From: Anthocerotibacter panamensis C109
GTDB taxonomy: Bacteria > Cyanobacteriota > Cyanobacteriia > Gloeobacterales > Anthocerotibacteraceae
Direction of reading: 5' to 3'
DNA length: 64,000 bases
NCBI RefSeq assembly: GCF_018389385.1
Contig: NZ_CP062698.1
Location: 3,752,667-3,816,666, forward strand
Below the pieces are notes generated by a model. The model ran no database searches. It was not told the DNA's origin and was given only the letters and a program-made list of their open reading frames with translations. Both the position numbers and the translations under genes were made by a program. Of this stretch, positions 40,495-56,775 are shown piece by piece (the first letter of the stretch is position 1; every line of letters begins with the position of its first letter).

Positions 40495-40529
40495 CCTGAC
40501 GCGTTGGGGAGGACGCGTCGTCCGTCAGG
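40495..40529. terminator. Hairpin between convergent genes
   Basis: CCTGACG and CGTCAGG form a 7-bp stem around 21 bases, between the HdrB-like gene and the convergent end of devC. It overlaps the devC stop. There is no T-run; it could act for both directions. Confidence 0.4.
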
Positions 40530-41724
40530 AGAAGATATCTGCCGGGTCAGCTTCCTTCAATTTACGCACGGCTAGCGCCCCGGCCCCAAAGCACATCAAA
40601 AAAGTCAAACCGAGGACTAGTACTGCCCGGTCCAAGGTCATGACCACAGGGAGACGGGCTGCTTGATTCACCAACTGATAGACTACCAGCGAGAGAAAAA
40701 AACCTGGAATGTAGCCAAGGACCGACAGGATGCTGGCCTCTTGAAAGACCACCCGCAGTAAGTAGCCATTGGTGTAGCCGATGGCCTTGAGCGTTGCGTA
40801 TTCGGGAAGATGAATCGAGACATCGCTGTAGAGAATCTGATAGACGATGACGGAGCCGACAATAAAGCCGACTACGACCCCTAGGGCAAAGATGTAGCCT
40901 ATCGGGGAACTGTTCTGCCAGTACTTGCGCTCCAGATTGATGAAATCATCGCGGGTGATGACCCGGACATCATGGGGCAGGTAATGGATGAGGGCCGCTT
41001 GGACGTGCGCTCGGTCTGCGCCCGGTTTGAGGGTGATAAGCCCCAAGCTGATTTTGTCGAGGGAGCGTTGGGTGAGCCGTGAATAGTTTAAATCGCTGGC
41101 AATCAAAAGGCCGTCTGCCGAAAAAATCGACCCGCCCAGGGTAAACAACCCACCGACTTGGATTCTCCGGTTGTTGACCTCAGTGCTGATCTGCACTCCT
41201 TGATTAAACTTCTCGACGATTGGGCCGTACTCGACGCGGGCTTTGCGGTCAAAGAGGACCGTGTCTGGGTGCTTGAGTTCTTCCAGATGGTCGGTCACTT
41301 CCGGGAGCGCGAAAGCCGGTTTTTGGGGGTCTACTCCGAACAGGATCAGGGGACGGTTGCGGGCGGTGTAGGGATTTTTCCAGAGGACATAGGCGGCATA
41401 GAGCGGGGCGACCGACTGTACCTCGGGCAGGGCACGGGCTTGTTGTAACCTGCGGAAGGCCAAGTCTTGGTTGGGATAATTGATGTCGATCAGGTTGTTG
41501 ACCCCAGGGTGGACCAGGACCAGATCCGCTTGCAAATGCTCGTGGATCTGGACGGCTGTATCGTACAGAGCCTCCTGGAGGCCGGACTGGAGAAACAATA
41601 ACAGGTCAGCAAAGGCCACCCCCGCGAGGGCTACCATCAGCCTGGTCTTCTCCCAGGTCAGTTGTAACCAGGGGACCGGAACGCGCCTGGGGGCAAACAG
41701 GGCTCGGAGTGCTTTAAAGTTCAA
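40525..41724 (-). CDS. devC: DevC-type ABC transporter permease
   Basis: 399 residues, last gene of the lipid cluster. The start appears to be TTG overlapping the end of devB by 11 bases. One N-terminal membrane segment (about 28-50), a large periplasmic domain (about 55-275) and three C-terminal segments with the MacB/FtsX-type core (GYIFALGVVVGFIVGSVIVYQ, a YATLKAIGYTNGYL cytoplasmic loop) give the DevC layout. In heterocyst-forming cyanobacteria DevBCA with TolC exports glycolipids; here it sits downstream of a lipid synthase and would export its product. Confidence 0.93.
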   Translation of the reverse strand: MNFKALRALFAPRRVPVPWLQLTWEKTRLMVALAGVAFADLLLFLQSGLQEALYDTAVQIHEHLQADLVLVHPGVNNLIDINYPNQDLAFRRLQQARALPEVQSVAPLYAAYVLWKNPYTARNRPLILFGVDPQKPAFALPEVTDHLEELKHPDTVLFDRKARVEYGPIVEKFNQGVQISTEVNNRRIQVGGLFTLGGSIFSADGLLIASDLNYSRLTQRSLDKISLGLITLKPGADRAHVQAALIHYLPHDVRVITRDDFINLERKYWQNSSPIGYIFALGVVVGFIVGSVIVYQILYSDVSIHLPEYATLKAIGYTNGYLLRVVFQEASILSVLGYIPGFFLSLVVYQLVNQAARLPVVMTLDRAVLVLGLTFLMCFGAGALAVRKLKEADPADIFS

Positions 41725-42781
41725 TGTTCACCTCGACTTTCATGTTGGTCAACGCGGACACCCGGCGGCTATCTGCTGGGTCGAGACGGATCTTGACCTC
41801 GACCACCCGAGCATCTACATCCAGGACCGGGTCGGTGCTGAGGATGTCCTTTTTGGCAATCTCCAGGCCGACTTTGGTGACCGTGCCGTGCATGACTCCA
41901 GGGATGGCTGCGCTGGTAATAGTGGCGCGTTGACCGAGGCGGATTTTGGCGATGTCACTTTCATAGACCTCGGCTACGGTGAACATCCGCTTGGTCTGTC
42001 CCAATTTGACGATGCCCCCTTGGTCTACGACTTCGCCCGGATTGGTCTGGACCTTGAGGATCTGACCATCTATGGGAGCGCGCACGTAGGTTAATTCCAG
42101 GTCGGCTTGGGCGACCAAGACCTGACTCAAGGCGGCGGCTACCTCTTCTTGAGCCGCCCGCACATCCACCAAACGGACCTCGCGGACGCTGGTGAGGGTG
42201 GCTTGAGCCTGCTGGAGCTGTTGGCGGGTGGCATCGCGCTCGAGGCGTTTGGCATCAAAGTTGGAGGCGGAAACCGCTCCGGCGCGCGCCAGGGTCTCGA
42301 AGCGTCGAAACTCGGTCTCGGCGTTGGCGAACTCAGTTTTGAGGCGAGCGACTGCGGCATTTTGGGCGGCGATGTCCCCCGGTTTGGCCCCGGCGCGAAT
42401 TTGGGCAAGACGCGATTGGGCGACGCGCACCTCCTGCTCCGCTGCGGTCAGACTGGCTAGGCGGCGGGCATAGGGGTCGAGGATGGCGATGAGTTGTCCG
42501 GCGCGGACCTGATCCCCTTCCTTGACCGAAAGTCTCACGACCCGACGCTGGAATTCTACCGAACTCGGGGCTGCCAGGGTCATAACGCCCCCGTCGGGCT
42601 CCAGCCGCCCGGAGGCACTGACGGCGGTGAGGACCGCAGTGCGGGCCGGACGTGGGGTGACATTAGACTCGCTAGGGGTATATTGCTTGAGAAAAGCCAG
42701 GGTCCCTACCATGAGAGCCGCCCCGCTACCCACGGCTACTAACAACCAAACTTTGTTATTCCAGAACTCTTTGCGTTGCAC
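41714..42781 (-). CDS. devB: DevB-type membrane fusion protein (HlyD family)
   Basis: 355 residues with GTG start, AGGAGG upstream. An N-terminal membrane segment (about 10-30) is followed by a biotinyl-lipoyl-like fold split by a long helical hairpin (about 110-225, rich in Ala, Glu and Arg) and a beta-barrel (QTKRMFTVAEVYESDIAKI). It links the inner-membrane permease DevC to an outer-membrane TolC partner, absent from this window. It overlaps devC by 11 bases, so the two are coupled. Confidence 0.92.
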   Translation of the reverse strand: MQRKEFWNNKVWLLVAVGSGAALMVGTLAFLKQYTPSESNVTPRPARTAVLTAVSASGRLEPDGGVMTLAAPSSVEFQRRVVRLSVKEGDQVRAGQLIAILDPYARRLASLTAAEQEVRVAQSRLAQIRAGAKPGDIAAQNAAVARLKTEFANAETEFRRFETLARAGAVSASNFDAKRLERDATRQQLQQAQATLTSVREVRLVDVRAAQEEVAAALSQVLVAQADLELTYVRAPIDGQILKVQTNPGEVVDQGGIVKLGQTKRMFTVAEVYESDIAKIRLGQRATITSAAIPGVMHGTVTKVGLEIAKKDILSTDPVLDVDARVVEVKIRLDPADSRRVSALTNMKVEVNIEL

Positions 42782-42818
42782 CCGTGCCTCCTGGTGTGAA
42801 TAGATGTTAGCTGCGCTT

Positions 42819-43346
42819 CTAAGGATTACCTTGGTACAGTTCCTCTTCCGGGACGGGGGCGGTTGGGGATTTGCCTGCCATCCCTAGGCGTTGGCGAGAA
42901 GAGAACATAGGGCCTTGCGGAGAGAGGTTGGGAGCGAAGCTCAGGAAGCCGATGGGCTTGTCCATGCCGTCGTAGACCGCCTCCATCCCGCCCTTCATGT
43001 AGTAGAGTTCGTGCCAGAACCCGGTGCCTCCGGTATCGCGGATGTATTGCTCCCACCATTGGCGGTGGGGGGCGGAGCGAGCCCAGGCTTCGAGGGAGGG
43101 GTAATCCTGCCAGTATTGGCGCATCCCAAAGTGGGGTGGATAGAGCGAGTAGATGATGGGCTCATGGAGGAGCAAGCCATCGGGTTGCTGCGCCACGGAG
43201 TCGGAGACTTTTGGGCCAAATCCGATCAGCGTCAGCAGCCCGCGCCCACTCCAGGTCGTAACCCGCATCCCCAGATACACCACGACCAAGTCGGGATAGG
43301 CTGAGAGGTCAACAGTGCTGCGGTTGAGCTTTTTCTGCTTAGCCAT
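42819..43346 (-). CDS. DUF4188 (monooxygenase-like) protein
   Basis: 175 residues from ATG at 43346, AAGGAGA eight bases upstream. VVYLGMRVTTWSGRG, YWQDYPSLEAWARS and GFWHELYYMKGGMEAVY fit DUF4188, related to ferredoxin-like-fold heme or flavin-free monooxygenases and to aldoxime dehydratases. It has no membrane segment. Its place between devA and devB suggests a tailoring step, perhaps hydroxylation of the lipid, but this is inference. I know no tested function for the family in such a setting. Confidence 0.8.
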   Translation of the reverse strand: MAKQKKLNRSTVDLSAYPDLVVVYLGMRVTTWSGRGLLTLIGFGPKVSDSVAQQPDGLLLHEPIIYSLYPPHFGMRQYWQDYPSLEAWARSAPHRQWWEQYIRDTGGTGFWHELYYMKGGMEAVYDGMDKPIGFLSFAPNLSPQGPMFSSRQRLGMAGKSPTAPVPEEELYQGNP

Positions 43347-43398
43347 GGGTGACTTCTCCTTGATCGGCAAGTTGGGTGGGCGCTAAGAGGTGTCGAAG

Positions 43399-44085
43399 CT
43401 AGCCGGTGACTGCTACCAAGCGACCATCCTCCATACGCATGATCCGGTCGGCGATATCCAGGATGCGGTTGTCGTGGGTGACCATCAGGATGGCGCACCC
43501 CTGATTTTTAGCCAGTTGCTGCATCAGCTCGACGATTTCACGGCCTGTCTTGCTGTCTAGAGCCGCTGTGGGTTCGTCGGCTAGAACCAGTCCGGGCTTA
43601 TTGACCAGAGCACGGCAGATAGCAACGCGTTGTTTTTGCCCGCCAGAGAGGTTGTTGGGATGGGTGTCGCTATAGTCGCCCAGCCCGACGGATGCGAGCA
43701 TTTTTTCGGCTTTGACCCGTGCTTCCCAGGTAGCGTTGGGGTGTAACTCCCCTGCCATTTGCACGTTTTGGGCGGCTGTCAAAAACTCCAGCAGGTTGTG
43801 CCCTTGAAAGATATACCCAATGTTGCGGCGGATCAGAACCAACTCTCGCTCAGCGGCTGCACCCATCTCTCGGCCCAGGACCCGCAAGCGCCCCTGTTGC
43901 ACCGATCTGAGCCCGCCAATCAGGGTCAAGAGCGTGGTCTTACCGGACCCGGAAGGGCCGGTCATGATGACGGTCTCCCCCGGTTGGATCTCTAGGGTGA
44001 CGTCAAAGAGGACCTGGCGGCATAATCCCCCCTGCCCGAAGTAGTGGTTGAGTTTTTCGACTTGGATAACTGGCGATGATGTCAT
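43399..44085 (-). CDS. devA: DevA-type ABC transporter ATPase
   Basis: 228 residues from ATG at 44085 ([17 protein letters not shown]); the open frame reaches 18 codons further but those residues are atypical. Walker A is [11 protein letters not shown], the signature [11 protein letters not shown], Walker [12 protein letters not shown], and the switch His in VTHDNRI. It belongs to the LolD/MacB group that energises FtsX-like permeases, here devC. Two genes separate it from devC on the same strand. Confidence 0.95.
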
Positions 44086-44135
44086 ACCGCAGTGACTCCG
44101 TAGATTGCGATGCAGGCAGGTCTTCCCAGGACGCT

Positions 44136-44303
44136 TCACCGGGGCGGAGGCGACAGGGGGATACCCATTTTTTCCGCGTAGGTGAGGATAGCTTCACGGA
44201 TAGACTCCAGTTGTTGATTTAACTCCGAAGGCAAAAGGCACAGAGGATGCTCCTTCGCCGGTTCGGTATTGAGCCGTTCTGTGGTTTCCTGGGGCTGGGT
44301 CAT
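44136..44303 (-). CDS. Small cluster protein, 55 residues
   Basis: A short frame with AGGAG about eight bases before the ATG, between the acyltransferase and devA. It is acidic, with a Gln/Glu helix and a Pro-rich end (MGIPLSPPPR). I do not recognise it. Its position in a tightly packed operon and its good ribosome site suggest it is expressed, possibly as a chaperone or regulator of a neighbour. Confidence 0.5.
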   Translation of the reverse strand: MTQPQETTERLNTEPAKEHPLCLLPSELNQQLESIREAILTYAEKMGIPLSPPPR

Positions 44304-44372: not shown

Positions 44373-45692
44373 TTAAGGAGGAGCGATAGCTGTAAGCTCC
44401 GTCGGTTGCGTCGCGTGGGCCAATTGGGCAAGGGTATGGTCGATCAACTGCTCCATCGTGCCTGCACTAACAGAGGGCTGTGAATAGATAAAATTCAGGA
44501 TCATCTGTCCCTGAAAAGTCGTGACATTGGTGCCGTACATCCCTGCGTACAAGGTATTGGACCCAGCGAAACTGATAGCCTCGAGGGTAAAAGGACCGTA
44601 GTGTTCAGGCAGGGTAACCCTACCGAGATTGGACACAGATACAGCGATGGGGACCGACCGGGGAAAAGTAAAGCAAAATTCAAACAGTTCCTTGGACAAG
44701 AGCATGTTGTCGTAGAGGTCGCTGTGCTTGAGTCCTGACGCGAGGTCGTGCTTGACCCGGCGGGCCAACTCCCACAAGCTAACCTCGGGCTCCAGGGTAT
44801 AGTAGCCCCGGCAGGCTGAGGCTAGGACAGCCATCGGCTCGCTACTCAAGGTGAGCTGTTGGCGCAGATCCAGGTAGGACTGACAACTGAGGCGCACCGC
44901 CATGTGCTTCCCGGACTTGATGCGCTCGGCGACAGTGAACATCATGGCTGCACACAGGGCTCCTTGTACGGTGGCTCCTTCTTGTCTACAGCGCTGGACG
45001 ATCCGTTGGGTGAACTCGGGGTCGAGGCTGCGCTGCACCATGCCACAACGGCGCTGGGGAATGGGCGCGTATTGCTCAAACCCCAAGCTCTGCGGGCGAT
45101 ACCGGAGCATCTGGAGCCCGTTTTTCAGCAGAAAGCGGGCTTTGCGCAGGAGCCTGTCCGGTCCTCGTAGCTCTGGGGGCATGAGTTCTTCGATGGGGGG
45201 GAGTGCGGGCAGGCTGGAGATGGCAGGAAGGGGGGCTGTGCTCCAGATCTGTTCGCTATAGATCAGCAGTTGGGCATGGAGTTGGAGGCAGCAGCGGGCA
45301 TCGGCAATGGCGTGATGCACCGTAGTAATCAGATAGGAGGTCGTCTGGGCCATCTGCACGAGCACGGCACGCAGCAAGCCCGTTTGGGGATCGAGGCCCT
45401 GGTTTAATTCTTCGTGGACGACCTCGAGCCACTGCTGCGGCTCGGTGGCGGGGACGACGCGCAGGGACAAGTGGGCGTTCCCGGCCTCGAAATAGAGACG
45501 CCCTGGAGTCCCGACGATGCGGGTATTGAGAGCGGGATGGCGGTGTTGCGCTAGTTCTAGGGCGTGCCTGAGGATCTTGCCGGTGAGCGGCCCCTGGATG
45601 CGGCTCATGGTGACAATATTCCAGGTCTTCGCCCGCCGGTTGAGCAGTTCTAATCCTTCTTCGACCCGGCCCAGTCGCCTGCTGACCGACAT
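44373..45692 (-). CDS. Condensation-domain / PapA-like acyltransferase
   Basis: 439 residues, with AGGAGG six bases before the ATG. The fold is that of NRPS condensation domains and PapA-type acyltransferases: the motif VHHAIADA (normally HHxxxDG) near residue 140 carries the catalytic His, and the second half has NLGRVTLPEHYGPFTLEAI, the DFGWG-like region being altered. PapA5-type enzymes move an acyl chain from a carrier protein to an alcohol. In this cluster it could release the synthase product as an ester or amide. The Gly after Asp is replaced by Ala, so activity needs care. Confidence 0.85.
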   Translation of the reverse strand: MSVSRRLGRVEEGLELLNRRAKTWNIVTMSRIQGPLTGKILRHALELAQHRHPALNTRIVGTPGRLYFEAGNAHLSLRVVPATEPQQWLEVVHEELNQGLDPQTGLLRAVLVQMAQTTSYLITTVHHAIADARCCLQLHAQLLIYSEQIWSTAPLPAISSLPALPPIEELMPPELRGPDRLLRKARFLLKNGLQMLRYRPQSLGFEQYAPIPQRRCGMVQRSLDPEFTQRIVQRCRQEGATVQGALCAAMMFTVAERIKSGKHMAVRLSCQSYLDLRQQLTLSSEPMAVLASACRGYYTLEPEVSLWELARRVKHDLASGLKHSDLYDNMLLSKELFEFCFTFPRSVPIAVSVSNLGRVTLPEHYGPFTLEAISFAGSNTLYAGMYGTNVTTFQGQMILNFIYSQPSVSAGTMEQLIDHTLAQLAHATQPTELTAIAPP

Positions 45693-45739: not shown

Positions 45740-47587
45740 TCAGTGGTCTTTGAGGGAGGCGAAGTGTCTCCCGCCTAGCTCTACCTGACGCTCGATCACC
45801 CCAGACTTGAGCCGTTCCACCAGATATTCTGGGGTGCAGGCAACGATATTGGTGCCATGGTCGGGTTCAATGAGGCTGACCAGCGCAAGGTTGCGCTCTA
45901 CTTGTTGGCTCAGGTTGTAGATCCCCAGAAAATTGAAGACCCCAGATTCATAGGTCCCGCAGGGCACGGACGGATTGTCCACCCCAACGTAGTATTCATC
46001 GGCCTTGAACCAACTGAAATCGGGATAGCCGTGGAAATGAACGATGGGCACGCCTGCTTGGGCTAGTGTCGGGAAGTAGAGGGCAGTCGCCAGGGTGATG
46101 GCGAGCATGACGTAGATATCGTAGGAAGGTTTGATATCGCTCTGGGTGGGGTCACAGCCCTCGGGTACTTGGAGGACGAGCCGGTCGGTCAGTCCGAGGC
46201 GCAGCACGTCGCGATCGAGGCGTAGGTCTGTCTTATTGGCCCCAGAACGAGAACTGACCACCCAGATATCGGGGATCTGTCGGTAGACTTTGCTCCCGTC
46301 CTGCATGGCTGTGAGGTAGCGTCTACCCAAGGCGTTTTGGCGCACTTCCTGGCGATTGTAGCCCTGTACGGGCTGGAGATTCTCCCATTCCTCGGCGCTG
46401 ATCTGCTGGGGGCCAACGTAATGGGGTGGCTCGGCGTAGGCGACGAAGCCATAGGAAACTCCAGTGCGCCCGTTGACAATGACGTTGACAATATCGCGGT
46501 GGGAGCGGCGCTTGATGACTTCGCTCAGTCGGGCTCCGGGGGGGAGCAGTTGGGTCTGAGCCATCTGCTGGCCCAGGGTGACCAGACTCAGGGCGTAGGG
46601 AGATTGCTGGGGGGTGTACTCCTCCAGCTTAAAGCGGCTTAAAGGCAGCGGGAGAATGGGGACGAAGACCTTGGGGATGAGCGAATTCAGGACGAAGCGG
46701 TCCATCTGCTGACGGGTGTAGACCGAGTCCGAAAGATTCATATTGAGGATCGAGAGCTTGGTCGGGGAGACGCCGATCACCAGTTCTGAGAAGGTACGAA
46801 TTAACGTATTCAGGCCGATCTTGATCTTATTTTGATAGGAGAGTGTGGGGTCCGAAAAAGTCTCGTCTAGCTGGGTGAGGATGATGACCTGGGTATTGGT
46901 CGGGTCCTCAATGTAGCGAGCGGCATGGTCCTCCGCCCAACTGCTGAGCGTCGCAATACGAGAGACTGTGAGCTTGCGGTCGCGTAGGATGAAGCGCGTA
47001 TACATGCCATAGAAGCCCTCGGAGGTGAGGATGCCCAACCTGCGCCCCAAGGAGGCGGGCCGTTCGACATCGATCACGGCGTTGATGGCGGCTTTGACGA
47101 CCCGAGTCTTGATACTGCGCTTCCATTCGAGGACCGGGACGGTAAACTCAAACCGGAAATCGATAGTGGCTTCCTCCCAGGGCACGACCTGGACCCCAAA
47201 GGCTCGCAGTTGGGCTTGGAGTTCTTCGCGCACCTTGAGGATTTCCGGGTTGTGGAAGCCTTTAGGCAGGGGCCGAAACGTGATAGCGAGTTTTTGGGCC
47301 ATGACCTTGGGGTCGATGACCGGGGGGCGGGCGTTGGGCTCGCTGGGGTCAAAAGAACCACCGATCAAGCGCCCAATCGTCTGGAGGCTAGGAGCCTGAG
47401 TGAGCGTCTGGGGCACCTCTTCTTGAGCCTGTAACCAGGCCAGGATCTCGGTTTTACGGGCCGCTAGTTGGTCGCGCAGGTCCGCAGTCAGCCGTCCTTT
47501 GGGGGCACGGACGCCCAATTTGTCCCCGTTGATCCAGACCTGTATTCCCTGCTTGCCAAGGTCGGTTAATAATTCAGACACATTCAT
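45740..47587 (-). CDS. TubC-docking-domain protein of unknown function
   Basis: 615 residues. The first 52 (VSELLTDLGKQGIQVWINGD, ending near AARKTEILAWLQ) form a TubC-type docking domain, known from the N termini of NRPS/PKS proteins where it guides subunit order. The remaining 560 or so match nothing I know: no condensation, adenylation or KS motifs are present. Conspicuous stretches are KLSILNMNLSDSVYTRQQMD, RRSHRDIVNVIVNGRTGVSYG and VPIVHFHGYPDFSWFKADEY. It has no membrane segment. Because a docking domain implies binding to a synthase subunit, it probably works on the carrier-bound chain or assists assembly. Confidence 0.75.
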   Translation of the reverse strand: MNVSELLTDLGKQGIQVWINGDKLGVRAPKGRLTADLRDQLAARKTEILAWLQAQEEVPQTLTQAPSLQTIGRLIGGSFDPSEPNARPPVIDPKVMAQKLAITFRPLPKGFHNPEILKVREELQAQLRAFGVQVVPWEEATIDFRFEFTVPVLEWKRSIKTRVVKAAINAVIDVERPASLGRRLGILTSEGFYGMYTRFILRDRKLTVSRIATLSSWAEDHAARYIEDPTNTQVIILTQLDETFSDPTLSYQNKIKIGLNTLIRTFSELVIGVSPTKLSILNMNLSDSVYTRQQMDRFVLNSLIPKVFVPILPLPLSRFKLEEYTPQQSPYALSLVTLGQQMAQTQLLPPGARLSEVIKRRSHRDIVNVIVNGRTGVSYGFVAYAEPPHYVGPQQISAEEWENLQPVQGYNRQEVRQNALGRRYLTAMQDGSKVYRQIPDIWVVSSRSGANKTDLRLDRDVLRLGLTDRLVLQVPEGCDPTQSDIKPSYDIYVMLAITLATALYFPTLAQAGVPIVHFHGYPDFSWFKADEYYVGVDNPSVPCGTYESGVFNFLGIYNLSQQVERNLALVSLIEPDHGTNIVACTPEYLVERLKSGVIERQVELGGRHFASLKDH

Positions 47588-47599
47588 GGGTGTTTCCCT

Positions 47600-47893
47600 T
47601 TACACGTCAACGGTTTCGGTGACTTCTGTGCTCTGTTGGTCTTCCGCCAACCGCTCAGAGAGGAGGGTGATCGTTGGGTAGTGGAAGATCAACAGCGGTG
47701 ACAGGCGAAAGCCCAATACTTTTTCGGCTTTGGCGATCAGCGCCAGTGCCTGAGCGGAGTCCATGCCATAGTTCTCGAAGGACTCGTTGACATTGATGGT
47801 GGCGGGGTCGCAGCCCAACTGCTCGGCTAGATTCTGGACCAACCAATCCTGGATGGCAGCAGCGGTCTCGACCTGTTGGGTATCGGGTTCCAT
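47600..47893 (-). CDS. Discrete acyl carrier protein
   Basis: 97 residues from the ATG that overlaps the previous stop as TGATG. The phosphopantetheine site is GMDSAQAL (Ser about residue 46), with a typical four-helix layout. It differs from the two tandem ACPs in the main synthase (GIDSIKRVE), so it may serve another step, such as feeding the acyltransferase or the TubC protein. The C-terminal tail (DQQSTEVTETV) is extra. Confidence 0.9.
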   Translation of the reverse strand: MEPDTQQVETAAAIQDWLVQNLAEQLGCDPATINVNESFENYGMDSAQALALIAKAEKVLGFRLSPLLIFHYPTITLLSERLAEDQQSTEVTETVDV

Positions 47894-49551
47894 CAAATCG
47901 TCTCCATAGGAACAGGGCGGTACTGACAGAAGCTCGGGGGCATGAGGATGCCCTGGAGCCGCAGGTGCTGGATCCGATAGAGATAAGCTGCTCCGGTCAT
48001 GAGATGATGGGCGACCTCGACTACCCGGCGGGCCTCAGGCTGGGCTAAATAGGTCCCCTGGACCCAGTCATTAAAAGCCCCCATCGCCGGACCGCACCAG
48101 ATCTGATAGTCGGCTTCTCGCCCTTGTTCTCCAGTGTTGGACCAGCGAGACGAAAGCCCTAAGTACCACCGGAAAATCAGCGCCATCTTGAGCTTGGGAT
48201 TGTTGGCAGCTCGGGTGAGTTGGGACGGATCGCGCTGGGTGAAAAAGGCCACGGTCTCTTCCCATACAGATTCCAGACTGCGGCGAAAGATCTGTTTCTC
48301 GAGCTGCTCGCGCTCTGTGTGTGGAAGGGCCTCTATCGCGTCGTAATTTTTGTAGAGGTCAAACAGCCTTTGCGCCCGCAACGGGAAGAACGTACCCCGC
48401 TTGAGCACCTGTACCCGTACCCCCAACTCGAACATGTCGGAGGCTGGGGCCATCATCACATCGGGCATCTGTGCCTGAGCGAGCAGACGCTTGGTATGCA
48501 AAGAGGCCCCGGCTTCGAGGCAAGACTGATTGATAGAGCCGGTCACCACGTAGGCAGCACCCATCATAAAGGCGGCTAAGGCGGACTGTGGCGATCCGAT
48601 GCCCCCGGCAGCCCCGACCCGGATCGGACATTCATAGCGGTACTTGGCCTGCATGTCATCGCGTAGGCCGAGGATCGAAGGCAATAGACAGACCAACGGT
48701 CGGTTGTCGGTGTGCCCTCCTGAGTCCGCTTCTACGGTGATGTCGTCCGCCACGGGCAGGCGTTGGGCCAAATTCGCCTGGAGTTCGGTAATGAGTCCCT
48801 GCTCCAGCAGTTGCCCCAGGATCTTAGGAGGTGCGGGTTGTAAAAACTTAGTCGCCACCTCGCGGCGTGAGATTTTGGCGAGGACTTTATTTTTGACTTT
48901 AGGTTGTCCCCCTTCCAGGCTCAGTCCGGCGGCCCGATAGTAGACAAGAGCGGGCGTAAGATCTAAGAAGGCCGAGGCTTCCAAGGTCCTGACGTCATGT
49001 TTGAGGTATAGGTCTACTCCGCCGCGCTCCAGGGCTGGATCACTGGGGCTGTGGAGCAAGTTAAAGGCGTAGGGGCCTTGGGGTAGGGCTTGTTGGATGC
49101 GGTGGATGGCAGTGGCGATCCGGTTGGGTGAGAGCCCGCCTGCACCAAAGGAACTCAGGATCTTGGCTTTGCCCAAGGTGATAACCAATTCCTCTGAAGC
49201 AATACCGTTAGCCATCGCCCCGGCGGCGTAGGGATAGACCACCCCATGGCTTGCCATAAACTGTGCGTCGCCCAACTGTCGTGGCACGAGAGGCGGCAGG
49301 GCACTCAAAACCTCAACGGAGCCCTTCGTGCGCACCTCAGCATCGCTCAGGTAGCCTTGATTCGCGACCCCAATCCGCCCCTCTATCCGCAGAATAAAGC
49401 AGGGTTGATTTAGGTTCAGGAGTTTAGCCCGGATGTCCTGCTCGTCAAAAGCCACCTGCTCAGGAGCGCCATGCCAGACCTGAGGATGGGTGGGGCCGAA
49501 GGAATGAAGTCGGCTATCACTGCCGCGATGTCCGGTATCAACACTGGTCAT
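47893..49551 (-). CDS. pfaD: PfaD-family trans-acting enoyl reductase
   Basis: 552 residues from ATG at 49551; a GTG three codons upstream is possible. It is a flavin-dependent TIM-barrel protein of the 2-nitropropane dioxygenase family: FGAGGLSPNRIATAIHRIQQ, YECPIRVGAAGGIGSPQSAL for FMN binding, and the large C-terminal addition typical of PfaD. In PUFA and some polyketide systems this protein reduces the enoyl intermediate in trans. Its presence implies a product with reduced bonds. It is coupled to the ACP by overlap. Confidence 0.93.
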   Translation of the reverse strand: MTSVDTGHRGSDSRLHSFGPTHPQVWHGAPEQVAFDEQDIRAKLLNLNQPCFILRIEGRIGVANQGYLSDAEVRTKGSVEVLSALPPLVPRQLGDAQFMASHGVVYPYAAGAMANGIASEELVITLGKAKILSSFGAGGLSPNRIATAIHRIQQALPQGPYAFNLLHSPSDPALERGGVDLYLKHDVRTLEASAFLDLTPALVYYRAAGLSLEGGQPKVKNKVLAKISRREVATKFLQPAPPKILGQLLEQGLITELQANLAQRLPVADDITVEADSGGHTDNRPLVCLLPSILGLRDDMQAKYRYECPIRVGAAGGIGSPQSALAAFMMGAAYVVTGSINQSCLEAGASLHTKRLLAQAQMPDVMMAPASDMFELGVRVQVLKRGTFFPLRAQRLFDLYKNYDAIEALPHTEREQLEKQIFRRSLESVWEETVAFFTQRDPSQLTRAANNPKLKMALIFRWYLGLSSRWSNTGEQGREADYQIWCGPAMGAFNDWVQGTYLAQPEARRVVEVAHHLMTGAAYLYRIQHLRLQGILMPPSFCQYRPVPMETI

Positions 49552-49620
49552 AGAGTGCACCTTCGCTGTAGGTCCGCGCGGTTCGGCGCGGATTAGGAAT
49601 TTAGACTTGCTGCCAAGGCT

Positions 49621-50271
49621 TCAATAGCCCGGTTGGATCAGGCGGTCTAGGACTGCGTAGATCTGGTTTTGCTGGGCTGTGGCGTAGGGCTTGAGCACCA
49701 GCGCACCCGCCGTAACCGGCGCAGCCTCTCGACCCCAGCCATGTTCCACGGTCCCGAGTAGCGCGGCACTCGCCCCTTGGGTTGCCAGTAGCCGTTGGAC
49801 GATCTCCAGCGCCTTAAACAGGGAATTCTCGCCGACTGTGAGCGTAAAAGCTGGCCCCGTGAAGGACCACCGTGCGGCGATGGCATGAGCCATCCGGTCA
49901 GCCCGATGGATCAAAAAACGATGAACCGCTCGGGAGCCTAGCGCCTTTACCCGGCCTACGTACTCCGGCTCCATCTGCCAGACTAGGTGCTGCTGCCGCC
50001 CTTCTACCTGACGGACCGAAAGGCCCGTCTCGGTCACCAGGACCACCGCAACGGCTCCTCCAGGCTGGATATCGGCTTGCTGGAGCACCAGATCCGCGAC
50101 CTGCACGATCAGCGCGTGGCCGATAGCCCAATTCTCATACTCGGGAACACTGCTGATGGGGCCGGGGGCTGCTGAGGGCATACTCCAGCCCCCAATAGCT
50201 TGCAGCAGCGCACTCAGAGCAGGGGAAGCGCCTGCTATACCCACAATGGCCTGACGGGGAAAGTACTGCAC
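49621..50271 (-). CDS. Half-size chain-length-factor-like protein
   Basis: 216 residues from GTG, with AAGGAGG four bases upstream. ARWSFTGPAFTLTVGENSLF and FKALEIVQRLLATQGASAAL resemble the CLF domain of the neighbouring large gene (SSLWNFTAPSFTLTAGENAT), with the KS nucleophile Cys replaced by Glu. It covers only the N-terminal half of a thiolase fold, and a loop of about 30 residues found in the larger copy is skipped. The good ribosome site and intact frame argue against a dead remnant; it could be a partner or regulator of the KS. Confidence 0.78.
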   Translation of the reverse strand: MQYFPRQAIVGIAGASPALSALLQAIGGWSMPSAAPGPISSVPEYENWAIGHALIVQVADLVLQQADIQPGGAVAVVLVTETGLSVRQVEGRQQHLVWQMEPEYVGRVKALGSRAVHRFLIHRADRMAHAIAARWSFTGPAFTLTVGENSLFKALEIVQRLLATQGASAALLGTVEHGWGREAAPVTAGALVLKPYATAQQNQIYAVLDRLIQPGY

Positions 50272-50299: not shown

Positions 50300-53200
50300 T
50301 TAGGAGCGTGGGTTATCTTCCGGCCAAATCTCCCGCAACATCTGCTGGGAATAGGTAACCTGGAGCCGAATCATCTCAACAAGGTGTTGCAGCGCTTCTT
50401 GTCGTGCCTGTAAAAAGGCCCCGTGAGCCTGGGTCGCACGGGTTGCATTGATATGGAGCTTTTGGTACTGTAGCGGGCTGATAGGCGGGACCTGCTCGCT
50501 ATAGCTCGTGGGACGGGCTGGCAATTCTCCCGCGACGGGCTCTGTAGGGGGCGCGACGAGGAGCACAGGCGGGGCGCTTGGGGGAGAGACCGGGGGCACA
50601 GGCGGCGCGACTCCTTGTTGGACCGGAAGTCTCGGCGGAGCGGGCGCAACTGTCCGCTCCGGTTGCGGCGTCGGATTACTCAAGATCTTTTTGCCCTCCT
50701 TCAAAATCGTGGTGCGCAAGGGGGGGCCACCTAACGTGACAGTCTTGAGCCGGGACAAGTCGGGGTTGGAGCGGACAGGAGCATAGAGCACCGACAGATC
50801 TAGCGCTACTCGGTGGCTCACCAGTTTTGACAAGGCTCTGACAATAGCCGTATGGTCGTCCACGCCGCGGCGGTTCATGGACACAGTGACATGCTCTTGC
50901 TGGTCCAGTATTTTATCGAGCCAGCGCGAGCAAATACTCCCGGCACCTACTTCCAGGAAGACCCGTGCCCCATCTTCATAGACGCGGTTGACCAGACGGG
51001 GGAAGTCTAGGGGTTGGCAGAGGCCCTGCGAAAGATGATGCGCAAGAGCCTCAGTTGTTGCGGCGACCGGTTGGTATTCAGCGGAGGAATAAAAGACTGT
51101 GTTGGGTACGTGCGCGATAGGACGTGTGTTGATCCGGGTAAGTTCGGGATATTCAGAAGCCATAGCAGCGCAGTGGATAGCATAGTTAAAAGGAGCCCGA
51201 AAAGAATCACATTTTAAAGCTTGGATAACCCGTGAACAGCCCCGGCTGTCTCCGGCAATCACCACTTCATGAGGGGTATTAATTTGTGTCAAGTAGACAC
51301 GGCTTTCCTGTTTTAGATATTCAGCCACTTGAGCAGCGGGAGCGATGAGGACATAGGTACTCCAAAACTCCGCATCTTTCTGGTCCAAAGGCAAGTCCCA
51401 GGACTCGCGCACGGCATACATAGGGCCGGAGAGCCGCTCACTAAAAAGAGGAGAAGTAAGGACAGCTTGCATATGTTGATTGAACTCGCTCCAGACGCCC
51501 TGTGCAGATATCATGCTGATCTCACCCAGGCTATAACCAAAGGCGAATTGAGGCTGAATCTTGAAGTGGTCTCGGGTAAGTGTCGTGATGATTCGGGCAT
51601 AACCCACTTCTGACTCGAACATGGTGTGGACACTACTGATGAACTGTTGATCGAGGGCTTCTAGTTGTCTGTTGGAAAACTTTTGCATACTGCGCGGATA
51701 GAGGATCTTATTGATAGTCGTCGCCCGCTGTCCATCCAGAGCTGCAATCATCGGGTCATTAAAGACCTCCGGGAAGAGCCGCAGAAAGTTGCGCCCGAGA
51801 CCGACATAAGAACCAAAAGCTCCAGGGTAGACGAAAGCCAATCCTCCCCGTTGACCTAGCGGTTTAGCGGTAAAGAAACTGCCCAAGGGTGTTTTCCAGT
51901 CCTCACCGCGCTCGAAAGCCTGCTCTACCCCCTGGCTCGCCCGTTGGATTTCACGCAGTACCTCGTCCTTGGTATGCCCGAGGATAGCGAGCGCATAGTT
52001 CGCTTGAGCACGTTGCTGGAACACCGCAAAGGTTTGGCTAGCAGCCGCAGCTAGCGACGGACTCGCCTCAAGCGTCTGTCCTAAGCGGTGGATCTCCTCA
52101 AGTAGCGCAGCACGGTCATCCCCCGCCAGAGAGAATAGGTGGAAGGGCGTGTGCTCCAAAAAGTTGTGGTCCCGTTGGTACGCTGGAGCGATACTTTCAG
52201 CAGCCTGTTTATGTTCCTCCAAAATGAGGTGGGCGTAAGTCCCATCGATACTCAAGCTATTGATAGCAGCAATCCTTCGTCCAAGACCATGTTCTATAAG
52301 CCAGGGGCGTGACTCCGTGGCGACATAAAAGGGACTGTTCTGCCAAAGTTCTGGGAATTTGGGTGCAGACCACTTTGGGACGGCAGGAATATAGCGGTAA
52401 TAGAGGCAAAGAGCCGTTTTGATGAGGCTCGCCATACCCGAAGCCACAAAAGTATGACCAATGTTGGCTTTTACGCTACCTAATGCACAGGTGATATCTG
52501 AAGTAGCAGATCGATACGCTTGAATAATTCCTTTGATTTCCGCCTCATCTTCATCAGGAAAACCACTGGCAAATACCTCAAGATAACTAATGTTTTCTGG
52601 CTTGAGATTTGACTTCTTCAGAGCTACGCTACAGACCTCTTCGACTGCCGCAGAAGAAGGTGCTTTAGGGAAAGAGTCCGACTTGTCAAACGTTGGATTT
52701 CTCTGTAAAAGACTGATGGAATCGATCACAGCATAGATGCGGTCTCCAGCTTGCTTTGCTGTTTCATACAGTTTGAGTACCACGGCTCCTGCCCCTTCTC
52801 CTGGCACCCAGCCTTTGGCATTTTGTGCATAGCTTAGGCTCGCGATACCCCTATTAGCGGGAGATAGTTGATGGCGTAACAAGACACTCTCAAAGCCCCC
52901 TGCCAAGTCCACAGCACCGACTAAGACCGCCTCAGCCTCACCATTACTCAGGAGTACTTGGGCAACTTCCAGCGCTTTAAAAGTAGCATTCTCTCCTGCG
53001 GTTAAAGTGAAAGAAGGTGCCGTAAAGTTCCATAGCGATGAGATCCGGCTGGACATAATATTTCCAATAAAGCTCAAAAACTCGCTGGTCTTAGCCGGAT
53101 TGTGGAGGCTTTCTTTTATTAAGTTCTCCAGGATCAAGCGCTGCTCGGCAGTCAAGAATATCCCATGCTCAAGGAGACTTTCCTGGAGTTCCCAGGGTAG

Positions 53201-54997
53201 ATTCCAGCGCGCTTGGAGTTGATGAGCAGACAGCTCAATATCCATAGCAATAATCACCGCAACGCTTGTGCCCTCCTTAATCGATGCATCTTTCAGAGCA
53301 TGGTCTGCTACTTTAAGCATCAGGATTTGTTGCGGGTTCAGTTTGTCCACTTCATTGGGTGGAATCCTGAGATAGATAGGGTCTACTTCAAAATCTTGAA
53401 TATAGCCACCTAGGGGTACTGAACCACCCTCAAAACCATATTCTTGGAGTAACGTTTGCTCCGCTTCTATACCTTTCCAGCGGTGGGGAGGAACTGGGCT
53501 TAAAGCTTGGTTGCCCTCATAAATACTGCGATCAAACTCCTCTAACCCCCGGCAAGAAGCAAAGTGTGCGTCCATTCCTAAAATAGCCAGTTTTGCTTCT
53601 GGGACAGGGGTATATACCTGTGCTTCTACAGATGGTAGAGGAGTGGGAGTCTGCTTAATAATTAAGTGTGCGTTGTTTCCTCCAAAACCAAAAGCACTGA
53701 TAGCAGCATGTCTCGAAGTATTATTCTCAGGCCATGCTGTATTGGCGCGAACAATGTTTTCAGCAGTGATTAAATTATTCTGAGAAGATGCAGGATTCTG
53801 GACATGAATAGTGGCTGGTATGATCCCTTTTTCTATTCCCATGACGGCTTTGAGTGTGCTCGCCAAACCTGCAACGGTGAGTAAATGACCAATATTTGCC
53901 TTGACCGAGCCGACTAAAGGTGAAGCTTGATATTGTCGAAAAAAGGTCTCAATAGAGTTGAGTTCTGTGCCATCCCCAAGGACAGTACCTGTGGCATGGC
54001 ATTCGATATAGTCAATGTCCTTAGGATCGAGCCCTGCTTCACGGTAGGCGCGCTCATAAGCGAGAAGCTGACCTTGAGGATTTGGACTCAGATAATGCTT
54101 TCCCCGTCCATCATTGGACAGACCAATGCCCTCAATAGTGGCATAAATATGGTCCCCATCCCGCATAGCATCCTGATAGCGCTTCAGAACAATCAGGCCG
54201 AAGCCATCTGCCGGGACTAACCCGCGTGAAGACTTATCCAGGGGAACACTAATCCCATTTTCTGGAAATCCTTGGACTCCAGCAAAGATCATACGAATAA
54301 AGAGTTGGTCGGCATAGCTAATAGCTCCTGCTAACATCAAATCTACGTTATGAGAAGTGAGGTAATAGCAGGCTAGTTTGGTAGCATATAGAGAGGAAGA
54401 GCAAGCTGCATCCAGAGCAAAACTAATTCCTGATAAAGAAAAAGCCTGTGCAATCAAGGGGACTTGAAAGCCACCGGTCATAGCATTATAGGGAGATACA
54501 ACGTCAGGAGCGTCCTGAATGCCCAACTGAAAATCATCCTTTTGAAATAGTTCTCTGAGTGTCCTGTTGAGGACTTTGTGATAGACCGGCCTAAATAAAT
54601 GGTTGGAGTATTTAGTCGGTAGGGAGAGATTACTCAGGATGAGGCCACACCGCGAGAGCACGGCTTTATTCCCTAAATAGTTGGTGCGTTCCAGAGCCTG
54701 CTTGGTGACATAGAGTGCACCTTTGAAAATCGGATCTAGACCTGCAAGCAGTACTTCAGGCAGGTCATACTCTGCTGCGTCGAAAGGGAAATCATGAATG
54801 TATCCACCTTTCAATAGATAAGTTTTATCCACCTTTCCCTTAACTGGATCGTAAAATTTTGCTGGATCGGTACCGATTTCTTTAGCTGTAGCTAGTGTTT
54901 TTGAGTCTTTTTGGTCTAACAAGTTTTGCCAAAATTCTTCGGGATTTTTAGCGTCAGGGAAAAGACAGGAAGTCCCAATAATTGCGATTTTTTCCAT
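50300..54997 (-). CDS. Polyketide/PUFA-synthase-type protein KS-CLF-AT
   Basis: 1565 residues, with AGGAG eight bases before the ATG. Domains: an active KS (about 1-440) with nucleophile in ALDAACSSSL (about residue 198) and His in ECHATGT and ANIGH; a chain-length-factor-like KS (about 465-925) in which the Cys is replaced by Glu (LTAGENAT); an acyltransferase (about 1030-1390) with GYSLGE (Ser near 1156); a Pro-rich linker; and a C-terminal helical segment (AHGAFLQARQEALQHL) like those in the next gene. This resembles PfaC plus PfaB in one chain, or HglC/D-type proteins. The first two thirds are more AT-rich than the last. Confidence 0.93.
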   Translation of the reverse strand: MEKIAIIGTSCLFPDAKNPEEFWQNLLDQKDSKTLATAKEIGTDPAKFYDPVKGKVDKTYLLKGGYIHDFPFDAAEYDLPEVLLAGLDPIFKGALYVTKQALERTNYLGNKAVLSRCGLILSNLSLPTKYSNHLFRPVYHKVLNRTLRELFQKDDFQLGIQDAPDVVSPYNAMTGGFQVPLIAQAFSLSGISFALDAACSSSLYATKLACYYLTSHNVDLMLAGAISYADQLFIRMIFAGVQGFPENGISVPLDKSSRGLVPADGFGLIVLKRYQDAMRDGDHIYATIEGIGLSNDGRGKHYLSPNPQGQLLAYERAYREAGLDPKDIDYIECHATGTVLGDGTELNSIETFFRQYQASPLVGSVKANIGHLLTVAGLASTLKAVMGIEKGIIPATIHVQNPASSQNNLITAENIVRANTAWPENNTSRHAAISAFGFGGNNAHLIIKQTPTPLPSVEAQVYTPVPEAKLAILGMDAHFASCRGLEEFDRSIYEGNQALSPVPPHRWKGIEAEQTLLQEYGFEGGSVPLGGYIQDFEVDPIYLRIPPNEVDKLNPQQILMLKVADHALKDASIKEGTSVAVIIAMDIELSAHQLQARWNLPWELQESLLEHGIFLTAEQRLILENLIKESLHNPAKTSEFLSFIGNIMSSRISSLWNFTAPSFTLTAGENATFKALEVAQVLLSNGEAEAVLVGAVDLAGGFESVLLRHQLSPANRGIASLSYAQNAKGWVPGEGAGAVVLKLYETAKQAGDRIYAVIDSISLLQRNPTFDKSDSFPKAPSSAAVEEVCSVALKKSNLKPENISYLEVFASGFPDEDEAEIKGIIQAYRSATSDITCALGSVKANIGHTFVASGMASLIKTALCLYYRYIPAVPKWSAPKFPELWQNSPFYVATESRPWLIEHGLGRRIAAINSLSIDGTYAHLILEEHKQAAESIAPAYQRDHNFLEHTPFHLFSLAGDDRAALLEEIHRLGQTLEASPSLAAAASQTFAVFQQRAQANYALAILGHTKDEVLREIQRASQGVEQAFERGEDWKTPLGSFFTAKPLGQRGGLAFVYPGAFGSYVGLGRNFLRLFPEVFNDPMIAALDGQRATTINKILYPRSMQKFSNRQLEALDQQFISSVHTMFESEVGYARIITTLTRDHFKIQPQFAFGYSLGEISMISAQGVWSEFNQHMQAVLTSPLFSERLSGPMYAVRESWDLPLDQKDAEFWSTYVLIAPAAQVAEYLKQESRVYLTQINTPHEVVIAGDSRGCSRVIQALKCDSFRAPFNYAIHCAAMASEYPELTRINTRPIAHVPNTVFYSSAEYQPVAATTEALAHHLSQGLCQPLDFPRLVNRVYEDGARVFLEVGAGSICSRWLDKILDQQEHVTVSMNRRGVDDHTAIVRALSKLVSHRVALDLSVLYAPVRSNPDLSRLKTVTLGGPPLRTTILKEGKKILSNPTPQPERTVAPAPPRLPVQQGVAPPVPPVSPPSAPPVLLVAPPTEPVAGELPARPTSYSEQVPPISPLQYQKLHINATRATQAHGAFLQARQEALQHLVEMIRLQVTYSQQMLREIWPEDNPRS

Positions 54998-55044: not shown

Positions 55045-56775
55045 CTACTTTTGACGGAGCTTAAGCACAGGAATAACAGTTGCTTTTGCCCCAAACATCT
55101 GACAGTAGATTCTCCCCTGCTTATCATGAATAATCAGGTCTGTAGATGCAGAAGTTGCTGCTTTTGACTTAATCAGTGCGGAGACATAAAAAGGCTCACC
55201 AGGAGGAATAGGACGAAATTGCTCGAATTGATTAGTCTGAGCAGGAAGAGCATTTTCCTGACAGAAATGTTGCAGCCAGATCCAGACGGTTTGCATGATA
55301 AGATCACATACAAAAGGATTATAGAGCTGAATGATAGGGAATTGTCCTTGCTGCTTATCATCAATTCCCTGCCAGACTGATTCCACGGTAATGCTTTCAG
55401 AAGTAGCATTAATAACGCGCTTGATCCCCTGAAAAGACGGACCATGAAATAGCGTCAATCCTCCTTGCTGATAGAAGTCTTGCGTAGTGCCGGGGATAGT
55501 ATGGTCTTCTTTGAGATTCATTCCTTCAAAAATGGGAGGTTGGGGGAGTTTGGATAAGAGCTTGACTTGGACACTGAAGTGATAGCGGGTTTTGCCTTCT
55601 GGACTCAGACTCCGTATCTTGGCGTCAAAGACAATTCCGCTAACGCTGTTCTTCGCAACTTCACAGAGATCTAAAATATACACTCCAGCCAGAGTTTCAT
55701 CAAAGGGAATACCCTTTAAGATCTTGAAATCATTGCAGATAAAAGCCGTATAGCCCGGATAAAACTGCTCGCAGCTATTTAAGATCCAAGCTATAGCACA
55801 GGTAGCAGGTAAGACTGGATAGCCACCGATGACATGGTCTTGTAGAAAGGGGTTAGCTGCTACAGTTAGCTTACGATGGATATGGTATTGCTCAAGCTTG
55901 GGTCTGATCTCTGCCGGAGCGGGGAACAAAGGGCTTCCAATCACTACCTGGCTCGCGTTGCGCTTCTCTGGATTTAGTTCATCTACAAGCATTCGGGTTC
56001 CGATATCCATAGGAATCAATTCGATATTTCGCCCGTTTAAACTCTTTTTTATTTCCGGGGTCACCATACCGCTGTCCCAACCACCCCAATCAATCGCTGT
56101 CACATGGCAATCGGGATAGTTTTGCTTGATGAGGTGTGCCGTCTTGTTGAGTACTTCGTTAGCGAGTGCGTAGTCTGTTTGACCGGCATTGCCATAGAAG
56201 CCAACAACAGAGCTAAACAAAATTAAGTAGTCAAGTTCATGGATGGCTACACAGCGCAACAGATTGCTCAATCCCTTGATTTTGGGCGCATAAACTTTTT
56301 CGAAATCCCCCGCTGTTTTCCGCTCAATTCGTTTGTCGGCGAGATTTCCTGCACCATGAATAATGCCTGTGATTCTGCCAAGGCGTTCCACGGCGCTTGC
56401 AACCTGTGCTTGGAGCTTCTCACCATCTGTGACATCCACACTGAGGTATTCAGCTTGCCCTCCTGCCTGTTCGATTGCTTGCAAGGTCTGTTCGATTTCC
56501 CGGCGAGAAACTAGGGCCTGGTATTCTTGCTGAATCTTGGCAGGTGTTGGTTTTTCACCCTGAGCATTGAGGTGCTCTAGAATTTTCTTTTTCACTTCTG
56601 CTTCACTGCCCCAGCTTTTTGCCCACTCGGGTTCCGGCTCAGCGATGGAGGAACGTCCCAGTAAGATAAACTTGCACCTATGGGATTCTGCCAGTTTTAC
56701 AACAGACTTGGCGGTGATTCCCTTGGCCCCACCACTGACTAGAAACACGTCTGCTGCTTCAATCGTGTTTTTCAT
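55045..56775 (-). CDS. Ketoreductase-dehydratase protein
   Basis: 576 residues, with GAGGAGA before the ATG. The N-terminal part (about 1-285) is the catalytic half of a PKS ketoreductase: the NADPH loop VFLVSGGAKGITAKS, Ser in LFSSVVGFYGNAG and Tyr in TDYALANE. The C-terminal part (about 295-570) is a double-hotdog dehydratase with His in FLQDHVIGGYPVLP and the LFHGPSFQGI strand. The matching structural half of the KR lies at the C terminus of the next upstream protein, so the KR is split over two chains. It resembles the KR/DH of PfaA/C and HglE-type synthases. Confidence 0.92.
   Translation of the reverse strand: MKNTIEAADVFLVSGGAKGITAKSVVKLAESHRCKFILLGRSSIAEPEPEWAKSWGSEAEVKKKILEHLNAQGEKPTPAKIQQEYQALVSRREIEQTLQAIEQAGGQAEYLSVDVTDGEKLQAQVASAVERLGRITGIIHGAGNLADKRIERKTAGDFEKVYAPKIKGLSNLLRCVAIHELDYLILFSSVVGFYGNAGQTDYALANEVLNKTAHLIKQNYPDCHVTAIDWGGWDSGMVTPEIKKSLNGRNIELIPMDIGTRMLVDELNPEKRNASQVVIGSPLFPAPAEIRPKLEQYHIHRKLTVAANPFLQDHVIGGYPVLPATCAIAWILNSCEQFYPGYTAFICNDFKILKGIPFDETLAGVYILDLCEVAKNSVSGIVFDAKIRSLSPEGKTRYHFSVQVKLLSKLPQPPIFEGMNLKEDHTIPGTTQDFYQQGGLTLFHGPSFQGIKRVINATSESITVESVWQGIDDKQQGQFPIIQLYNPFVCDLIMQTVWIWLQHFCQENALPAQTNQFEQFRPIPPGEPFYVSALIKSKAATSASTDLIIHDKQGRIYCQMFGAKATVIPVLKLRQK

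Follow-up and report, generated by a model that had tools for sequence, protein, structure and literature searches.

We report that the protein encoded at positions 45740 to 47587 of the window (the whole 64,000-nucleotide stretch of Anthocerotibacter panamensis C109 DNA analyzed here, to which all positions refer unless stated otherwise), which we call TubCX, is probably an enzyme of class II aldolase fold that docks to the acyl carrier protein (ACP) at the terminal carrier position of a PUFA/hgl-type or modular polyketide assembly line; we assign this reading a probability of roughly 0.7. The initial annotation had placed an open reading frame at exactly these coordinates; the frame lies on the minus strand, and the plus strand carries 12 stop codons over the same interval. 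Its domains, the second and third of which were recognized by structure prediction, are the following:

45740..47587, minus strand: TubCX (name coined here), 615 amino acids from an ATG start, comprising a beta-hairpin docking (bHD) domain, a CoaB-like domain and a class II aldolase-like domain
47429..47581, minus strand: TubC_N/bHD domain, residues 3–53 (Pfam PF18563, E = 1.8e-19; fold match to AerJ, 8aqq)
46652..47308, minus strand: predicted Rossmann-like domain, residues 94–312, closest to CoaB (phosphopantothenoylcysteine synthetase) (AlphaFold2 model, pLDDT 75)
45746..46618, minus strand: predicted class II aldolase/adducin-fold domain, residues 324–614 (Foldseek and VIA-align on the predicted model)

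The TubC-type docking domain that had been assigned to the N terminus is confirmed by Pfam TubC_N, which scores 70 bits over residues 3–53 (cut-off 26; E = 1.8e-19). The companion statement, that the other ~560 residues hold no known domain, stands at the level of family models, since neither Pfam nor NCBIfam matches them, but not at the level of structure, where an AlphaFold2 model built with 28 homologues (pLDDT 82) gives the C-terminal half a class II aldolase fold. A sequence search of the PDB likewise returned no match between the TubCX body and any solved structure.

TubCX is a conserved cyanobacterial family. Of 388 cyanobacterial genomes sampled, 30 contain homologues that are 52–61% identical over essentially the full length, and the GTDB collection holds 119 TubCX loci, the best 80 of which were kept, all of them cyanobacterial; because near-full-length homologues recur in this way, TubCX is more than a chance open reading frame. 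No relative was found in viral contigs, and PLSDB yielded a single homologue, labelled 'hypothetical protein', which is encoded on a plasmid of Gloeothece, with type I PKS genes on one side and an oxidoreductase on the other. TubC_N was detected in 26 of 28 aligned members, the remaining two rows being truncated at the start, and every complete copy examined bears the docking domain. In 194 genomes, profiles of the two modelled body domains each matched only in TubCX, barring scraps at E > 0.01, and the two domains were never separate from each other.

The docking domain has an identifiable partner. Known bHD domains bind a C-terminal short linear motif (SLiM), the last five residues of which form a beta-strand on the hairpin (PMC9113145), and the modelled bHD domain of TubCX superimposes on the AerJ bHD structure (8aqq) with an rmsd of 1.0 A over ~52 residues (TMt 0.83). 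The initial annotation had argued that a docking domain implies a specific partner, and we found one in the neighboring upstream carrier protein, which has a conserved C-terminal SLiM:

47600..47896, minus strand: partner ACP, 98 amino acids from TTG or 97 from the ATG at 47893 (Pfam PP-binding, E = 3.2e-15)
47603..47620, minus strand: SLiM-like C-terminal tail of the ACP, TETVDV, the predicted ligand of the bHD domain (sequence and family motif)

This ACP has the phosphopantetheine site GMDS; its gene shares 4 bases with the end of pfaD and ends 12 bases before the start of TubCX. An ACP with a C-terminal motif occurs no more than 1.9 kb upstream of TubCX in all 78 scorable loci. The motif is short and acidic-hydrophobic, typically SExFEI, and the tail in the window is a slightly divergent version of it. 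A loose form of the pattern was matched by 68 of 68 distinct partner ACPs, versus 3 of 1,571 other ORFs, and by none of 17 other carrier tails. (Note that this control set began as 19 ACP-like tails; those of loci L080 and L092 match the pattern, and both were taken out as they belong to partner ACPs at loci not previously indexed.) These patterns argue strongly that the bHD domain of TubCX would bind the SLiM of the neighboring ACP.

The genomic context of this pair is a PUFA/hgl-type synthase cluster. The assigned genes from 61731 down to 40525 are all co-directional on the minus strand, and run from an hgl/PUFA-type synthase through the ACP, TubCX and a PapA-like acyltransferase to a DevA/af470-like/DevB/DevC block:

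56806..61731, minus strand: HglE-like KS-AT-ACP-ACP synthase (Pfam)
55045..56775, minus strand: KR-DH protein, PfaA-like C-terminal part (Pfam/NCBIfam)
50300..54997, minus strand: HglC-like KS-KS(CLF)-AT protein (Pfam)
49621..50271, minus strand: 216-amino-acid partial KS/CLF-like fragment (38% identity to residues 558–704 of the HglC-like protein; no Pfam match)
47893..49560, minus strand: PfaD-type enoyl reductase (TIGR02814, E = 6.9e-199)
44373..45692, minus strand: PapA5-like acyltransferase of condensation fold (PapA_C, E = 2.7e-17)
40525..44139, minus strand: DevC-DevB-(af470-like monooxygenase)-DevA exporter block (TIGR01185, TIGR02971, TIGR02982; PF13826)

An hgl-like island in the sense of PMC11804610 has homologues of hglEAFGCA and hgdCB in one cluster; by Pfam/NCBIfam, the window carries KS-AT-ACP, KR-DH, KS-CLF-AT, PfaD and DevB/DevC. 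No HglB-like thioester reductase was found in the genome from which the window comes, and another enzyme must therefore end the chain. Three further features of this genome deserve mention. The 216-amino-acid fragment, which separates pfaD from the KS-KS-AT gene, has the appearance of a truncated duplication; an af470-like monooxygenase, or haem-dehydratase-like protein (PF13826; 42819–43370, minus strand), sits inside the DevA-DevB exporter block; and a second hgl/PUFA-type synthase locus lies outside the window (G000:C1:24746-37516), its HglC-like protein 47% identical to the copy in the window.

The expectation that homologues lie in PKS-like clusters was borne out: PUFA/hgl-type or modular PKS genes occur within 10 kb in 73 of the best 80 of the 119 loci (51 hgl-type, 22 modular-PKS, 7 other), and the 7 loci that lack PKS genes within that distance, L092 among them, still show the partner ACP. 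In the TubCX tree the modular-PKS loci form one clade beside the hgl-type loci, so that ACP and TubCX have apparently been transferred together between the two synthase types. None of the 22 modular-PKS loci retains an intact AT in the PKS protein immediately upstream of TubCX: the GHSxG serine is replaced in 20 (by GYGVG, GNDIG and other sequences; loci L107, L112, L123, L145 and 18 more make up the 22) and the region is absent in 2, whereas the internal modules used as controls have an intact AT. The histidine of the KS HGTGT motif is also replaced in 12 of these 22 proteins, and none of the 22 has a KR motif. From these sequences, the last PKS module of the modular-PKS loci looks non-elongating, and it is there that TubCX would dock. 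The dead AT of the last module, together with the lack of an HglB-like reductase in the genome of the window, places TubCX at the chain end, in release or in the head-group chemistry that precedes it. (We dropped the idea that TubCX acts on a beta-ketoacyl-ACP, as the last modular-PKS protein, a KS-AT without KR, might suggest; its AT serine and many of the KS HGTGT histidines are lost.)

Other genes recur at these loci. L107 (2412–19988) and similar modular-PKS loci carry a fatty acyl-AMP ligase and an AurF-like protein, possibly a CylC-type halogenase, and the modular-PKS clusters also contain MGDG-synthase-like glycosyltransferases and a UDP-galactopyranose mutase; the gene content suggests that their product may be a galactofuranose-bearing glycolipid. 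A gene for an ArgZ-like arginine dihydrolase follows ACP-TubCX-PapA in two Scytonema loci with no PKS genes within 10 kb (L071, 13465–15603; L082, 13555–15693). A protein of ~487 amino acids with no Pfam match recurs near TubCX in L069 (11916–13379) and ~14 other hgl-type loci. In Gloeocapsopsis crepidinum LEGE 06123, a strain of PMC11804610, TubCX lies in the only hgl-type locus. We considered the C24 1,3-diol glycoside of G. crepidinum as a product, which is possible because the only close HglC homologue of this organism sits in the TubCX locus; however, the cluster also has an HglB, and the authors of PMC11804610 themselves call the link speculative.

The proposed enzymatic function derives from the C-terminal domain. 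With the predicted model of residues 324–614 as query, the top Foldseek match was RhaD, at an E value of only 1.3e-3, and VIA-align matched FucA (2opi) with Z 14.3 over 167 residues at 3.0 A. Further VIA-align matches were APIP (4m6r, Z 12.5), AraD epimerase (1jdi, Z 12.2), a decarboxylase (2z7b, Z 12.0), pyruvic oxime dioxygenase (8iqa, Z 11.8) and the NovR iron oxygenase (9ryg, Z 11.1), and nearly all of the structure-search matches shown for this domain belong to the class II aldolase superfamily. The residues of interest are these:

46229..46246, minus strand: SGANKT (residues 448–453), candidate phosphate/anion loop like FucA TAGNVS (from conservation; placement inferred)
46118..46129, minus strand: PSYD490, invariant, in register with FucA PSSE73 and AraD PSSD76 (catalytic acid position)
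46031..46039, minus strand: H517-F-H519, putative metal ligands 1 and 2, invariant in 79 of 79 sequences
45857..45859, minus strand: H577 of PDHG, putative metal ligand 3, invariant in 79 of 79 sequences

H517, H519 and H577 are the sole invariant histidines of TubCX, and D490 is likewise invariant in 79 of 79 sequences. Their order is shared with AraD (PSSD76, H95-x-H97, H171-G) and FucA (PSSE73, H92-x-H94, H155-G) of E. coli MG1655, and at the position of FucA Glu73 TubCX carries Asp, like AraD. When the pattern PSx[DE]-x(12,30)-HxH-x(40,90)-HG was run against 1,386 ORFs of the fetched DNA, it returned only TubCX and seven PF00596 aldolases, AraD and FucA included. In the SGANKT loop G449 is conserved in 79 and N451 in 77 of 79 sequences; the loop may bind phosphate, which fits the phosphopantetheine arm or a sugar-phosphate co-substrate alike. 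Profile-profile comparison with class II aldolases by hhalign scored no better than column-shuffled decoys, either for the whole C-terminal domain or for its core alone, and TubCX falls below any Pfam threshold for PF00596. As sequence profiles fail, the class II aldolase link rests on the predicted fold and the motif order, and the equivalence of individual residues follows, by inference, from motif order and predicted secondary structure. Taken together, the model and the motifs make residues 324–614 a likely class II aldolase-type metal enzyme domain.

The CoaB likeness of the middle domain is a lead only. When residues 94–312 were modelled apart, the first 19 rows of the structure search were CoaB/PPCS-type (Z 8.4–10.3, versus 8.3 for the first unrelated row); Foldseek returned no significant match. 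CoaB ranks as the nearest fold (best Z 10.3), but at an rmsd of 4.0 A and 9% identity, and no CoaB SSGxMG-type loop is visible in the TubCX sequence; the likeness may reflect just a common Rossmann-like arrangement.

These observations suggest how TubCX might act. The bHD domain would first grip the SLiM of the neighboring ACP, as the tail sequences strongly indicate. The CoaB-like domain could then conceivably contribute to binding of the phosphopantetheine arm or of a nucleotide-like cofactor. Finally, and with moderate likelihood, a metal bound by H517, H519 and H577 and the acid-base residue D490 would enable the aldolase domain to perform enolate-type chemistry on the completed chain at its thioester end. 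The class II aldolase fold is suited to enolate chemistry at a chelated carbonyl, and its members also include an epimerase, a dehydratase, a decarboxylase and iron oxygenases. The likeliest form of the last step would be an aldol-type C-C step that adds or removes a small head unit, preparing or effecting release, with SDR, PapA or glycosyltransferase genes acting afterwards; that TubCX performs this specific step is a tentative proposal, with the odds somewhat against it. A still bolder version, in which TubCX and the SLiM-bearing ACP are a portable chain-ending cassette whose docked metal-dependent aldolase makes or breaks a C-C bond of a lipid attached to the carrier (for instance by adding a small phosphorylated sugar fragment in an aldol reaction), we consider unlikely; to our knowledge such C-C chain-termination chemistry occurs in no PKS, NRPS or PUFA synthase.

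The same domain could instead free the chain by cleavage, through a retro-aldol or retro-Claisen reaction or through hydrolysis and decarboxylation of the terminal acyl-ACP, the resulting free aldehyde or ketone being reduced by the adjacent SDR and decorated by glycosyltransferases. Class II aldolases are reversible and the fold includes decarboxylases (2z7b, Z 12.0); an SDR homologue occurs within 10 kb in 20 of the 22 modular-PKS loci, mostly directly downstream, and tblastn with one thioester reductase query found no match within 10 kb of TubCX in those 22. The apparently non-elongating last module, however, need not leave the last carrier with a beta-keto or beta-hydroxy thioester, and some hgl-type clusters carry a thioester reductase too, so that we regard cleavage as possible but improbable. 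(A thioester reductase is kept near TubCX in at least four hgl-type loci, L087, L125, L091 and L094. The simpler notion of TubCX as a plain replacement of this reductase is weakened by L087 and L125, which have both, and by L091, which has an ACP and a reductase beside TubCX.) We attach about the same low likelihood to a role in tailoring the ACP-bound chain before release, as an epimerase, dehydratase or iron-dependent oxygenase, with PapA or another enzyme releasing the product. This would suit a fold that hosts the AraD epimerase, the methionine-salvage enzyme APIP, pyruvic oxime dioxygenase and NovR, as well as the AraD-like Asp at the Glu73 position and the presence of PapA in 41 of 51 hgl-type loci, where PapA could be the releasing enzyme and TubCX then a tailoring one; in the modular-PKS clade, though, no PapA homologue was found within 10 kb of any of the 22 loci, which, with the missing thioester reductase match, leaves no other evident release enzyme. 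That the body is a non-catalytic scaffold or gatekeeper positioning the ACP for other enzymes is very unlikely, for although it has no match among enzyme family models, the putative metal triad is strictly conserved in 79 of 79 sequences, together with the acid and the adjacent loops, as in an active site.

If TubCX is indeed an ACP-docked enzyme of aldolase fold, it would add chain-processing chemistry to assembly lines and offer a handle on the products of the widespread cyanobacterial hgl-like lipid clusters, and the ACP-TubCX pair, apparently portable between kinds of synthase, would be of interest for assembly-line engineering. The initial annotation had suggested a new class of trans-acting component. 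This is reasonable insofar as bHD domains have been described on C, E, Cy, TE, MT, thioester reductase and halogenase partners, with no aldolase-type partner listed (PMC9113145), but the fold itself is known. It had also named, as counting against such a role, a confident match of the body to a family unrelated to carrier-bound substrates; the fold family is indeed one of soluble sugar phosphates, but the docking evidence ties TubCX to an ACP. The docking logic (PMC9113145, PMC13324335) and the cluster type (PMC11804610) are known, and the combination of a bHD domain with this body appears undescribed: it was not found in the literature searched, which is weak evidence given its limited coverage, and neither TubCX nor its partner ACP is described in the main text of PMC11804610.

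The window resembles the hgl-like islands of PMC11804610 in joining a PUFA/hgl-type synthase to a DevBC (hgdBC) exporter. Like HglB of the hgl islands, TubCX would close an hgl-type line as a terminal enzyme paired with a carrier protein; unlike HglB, a fused ACP-reductase, it is a separate protein that would dock to a discrete ACP. With the class II aldolase/adducin superfamily (FucA, RhaD, AraD, MtnB/APIP, NovR) it shares a predicted fold (Z 11–14) and the order PSx[DE]...HxH...HG, and it differs from that superfamily in having no detectable sequence similarity, two extra N-terminal domains, ACP docking and, judging from motif spacing, a ~95-residue insertion before the anion loop. The closest parallels in docking are the condensation domain Bamb_5915 of the enacyloxin system, which mediates chain release (PMC13324335), and the AerJ halogenase, both of which carry an N-terminal TubC/bHD domain on an enzyme that meets a SLiM-ended carrier (PMC9113145), whereas the body of TubCX belongs to neither of these enzyme types and models as a CoaB-like domain followed by a class II aldolase-like domain.
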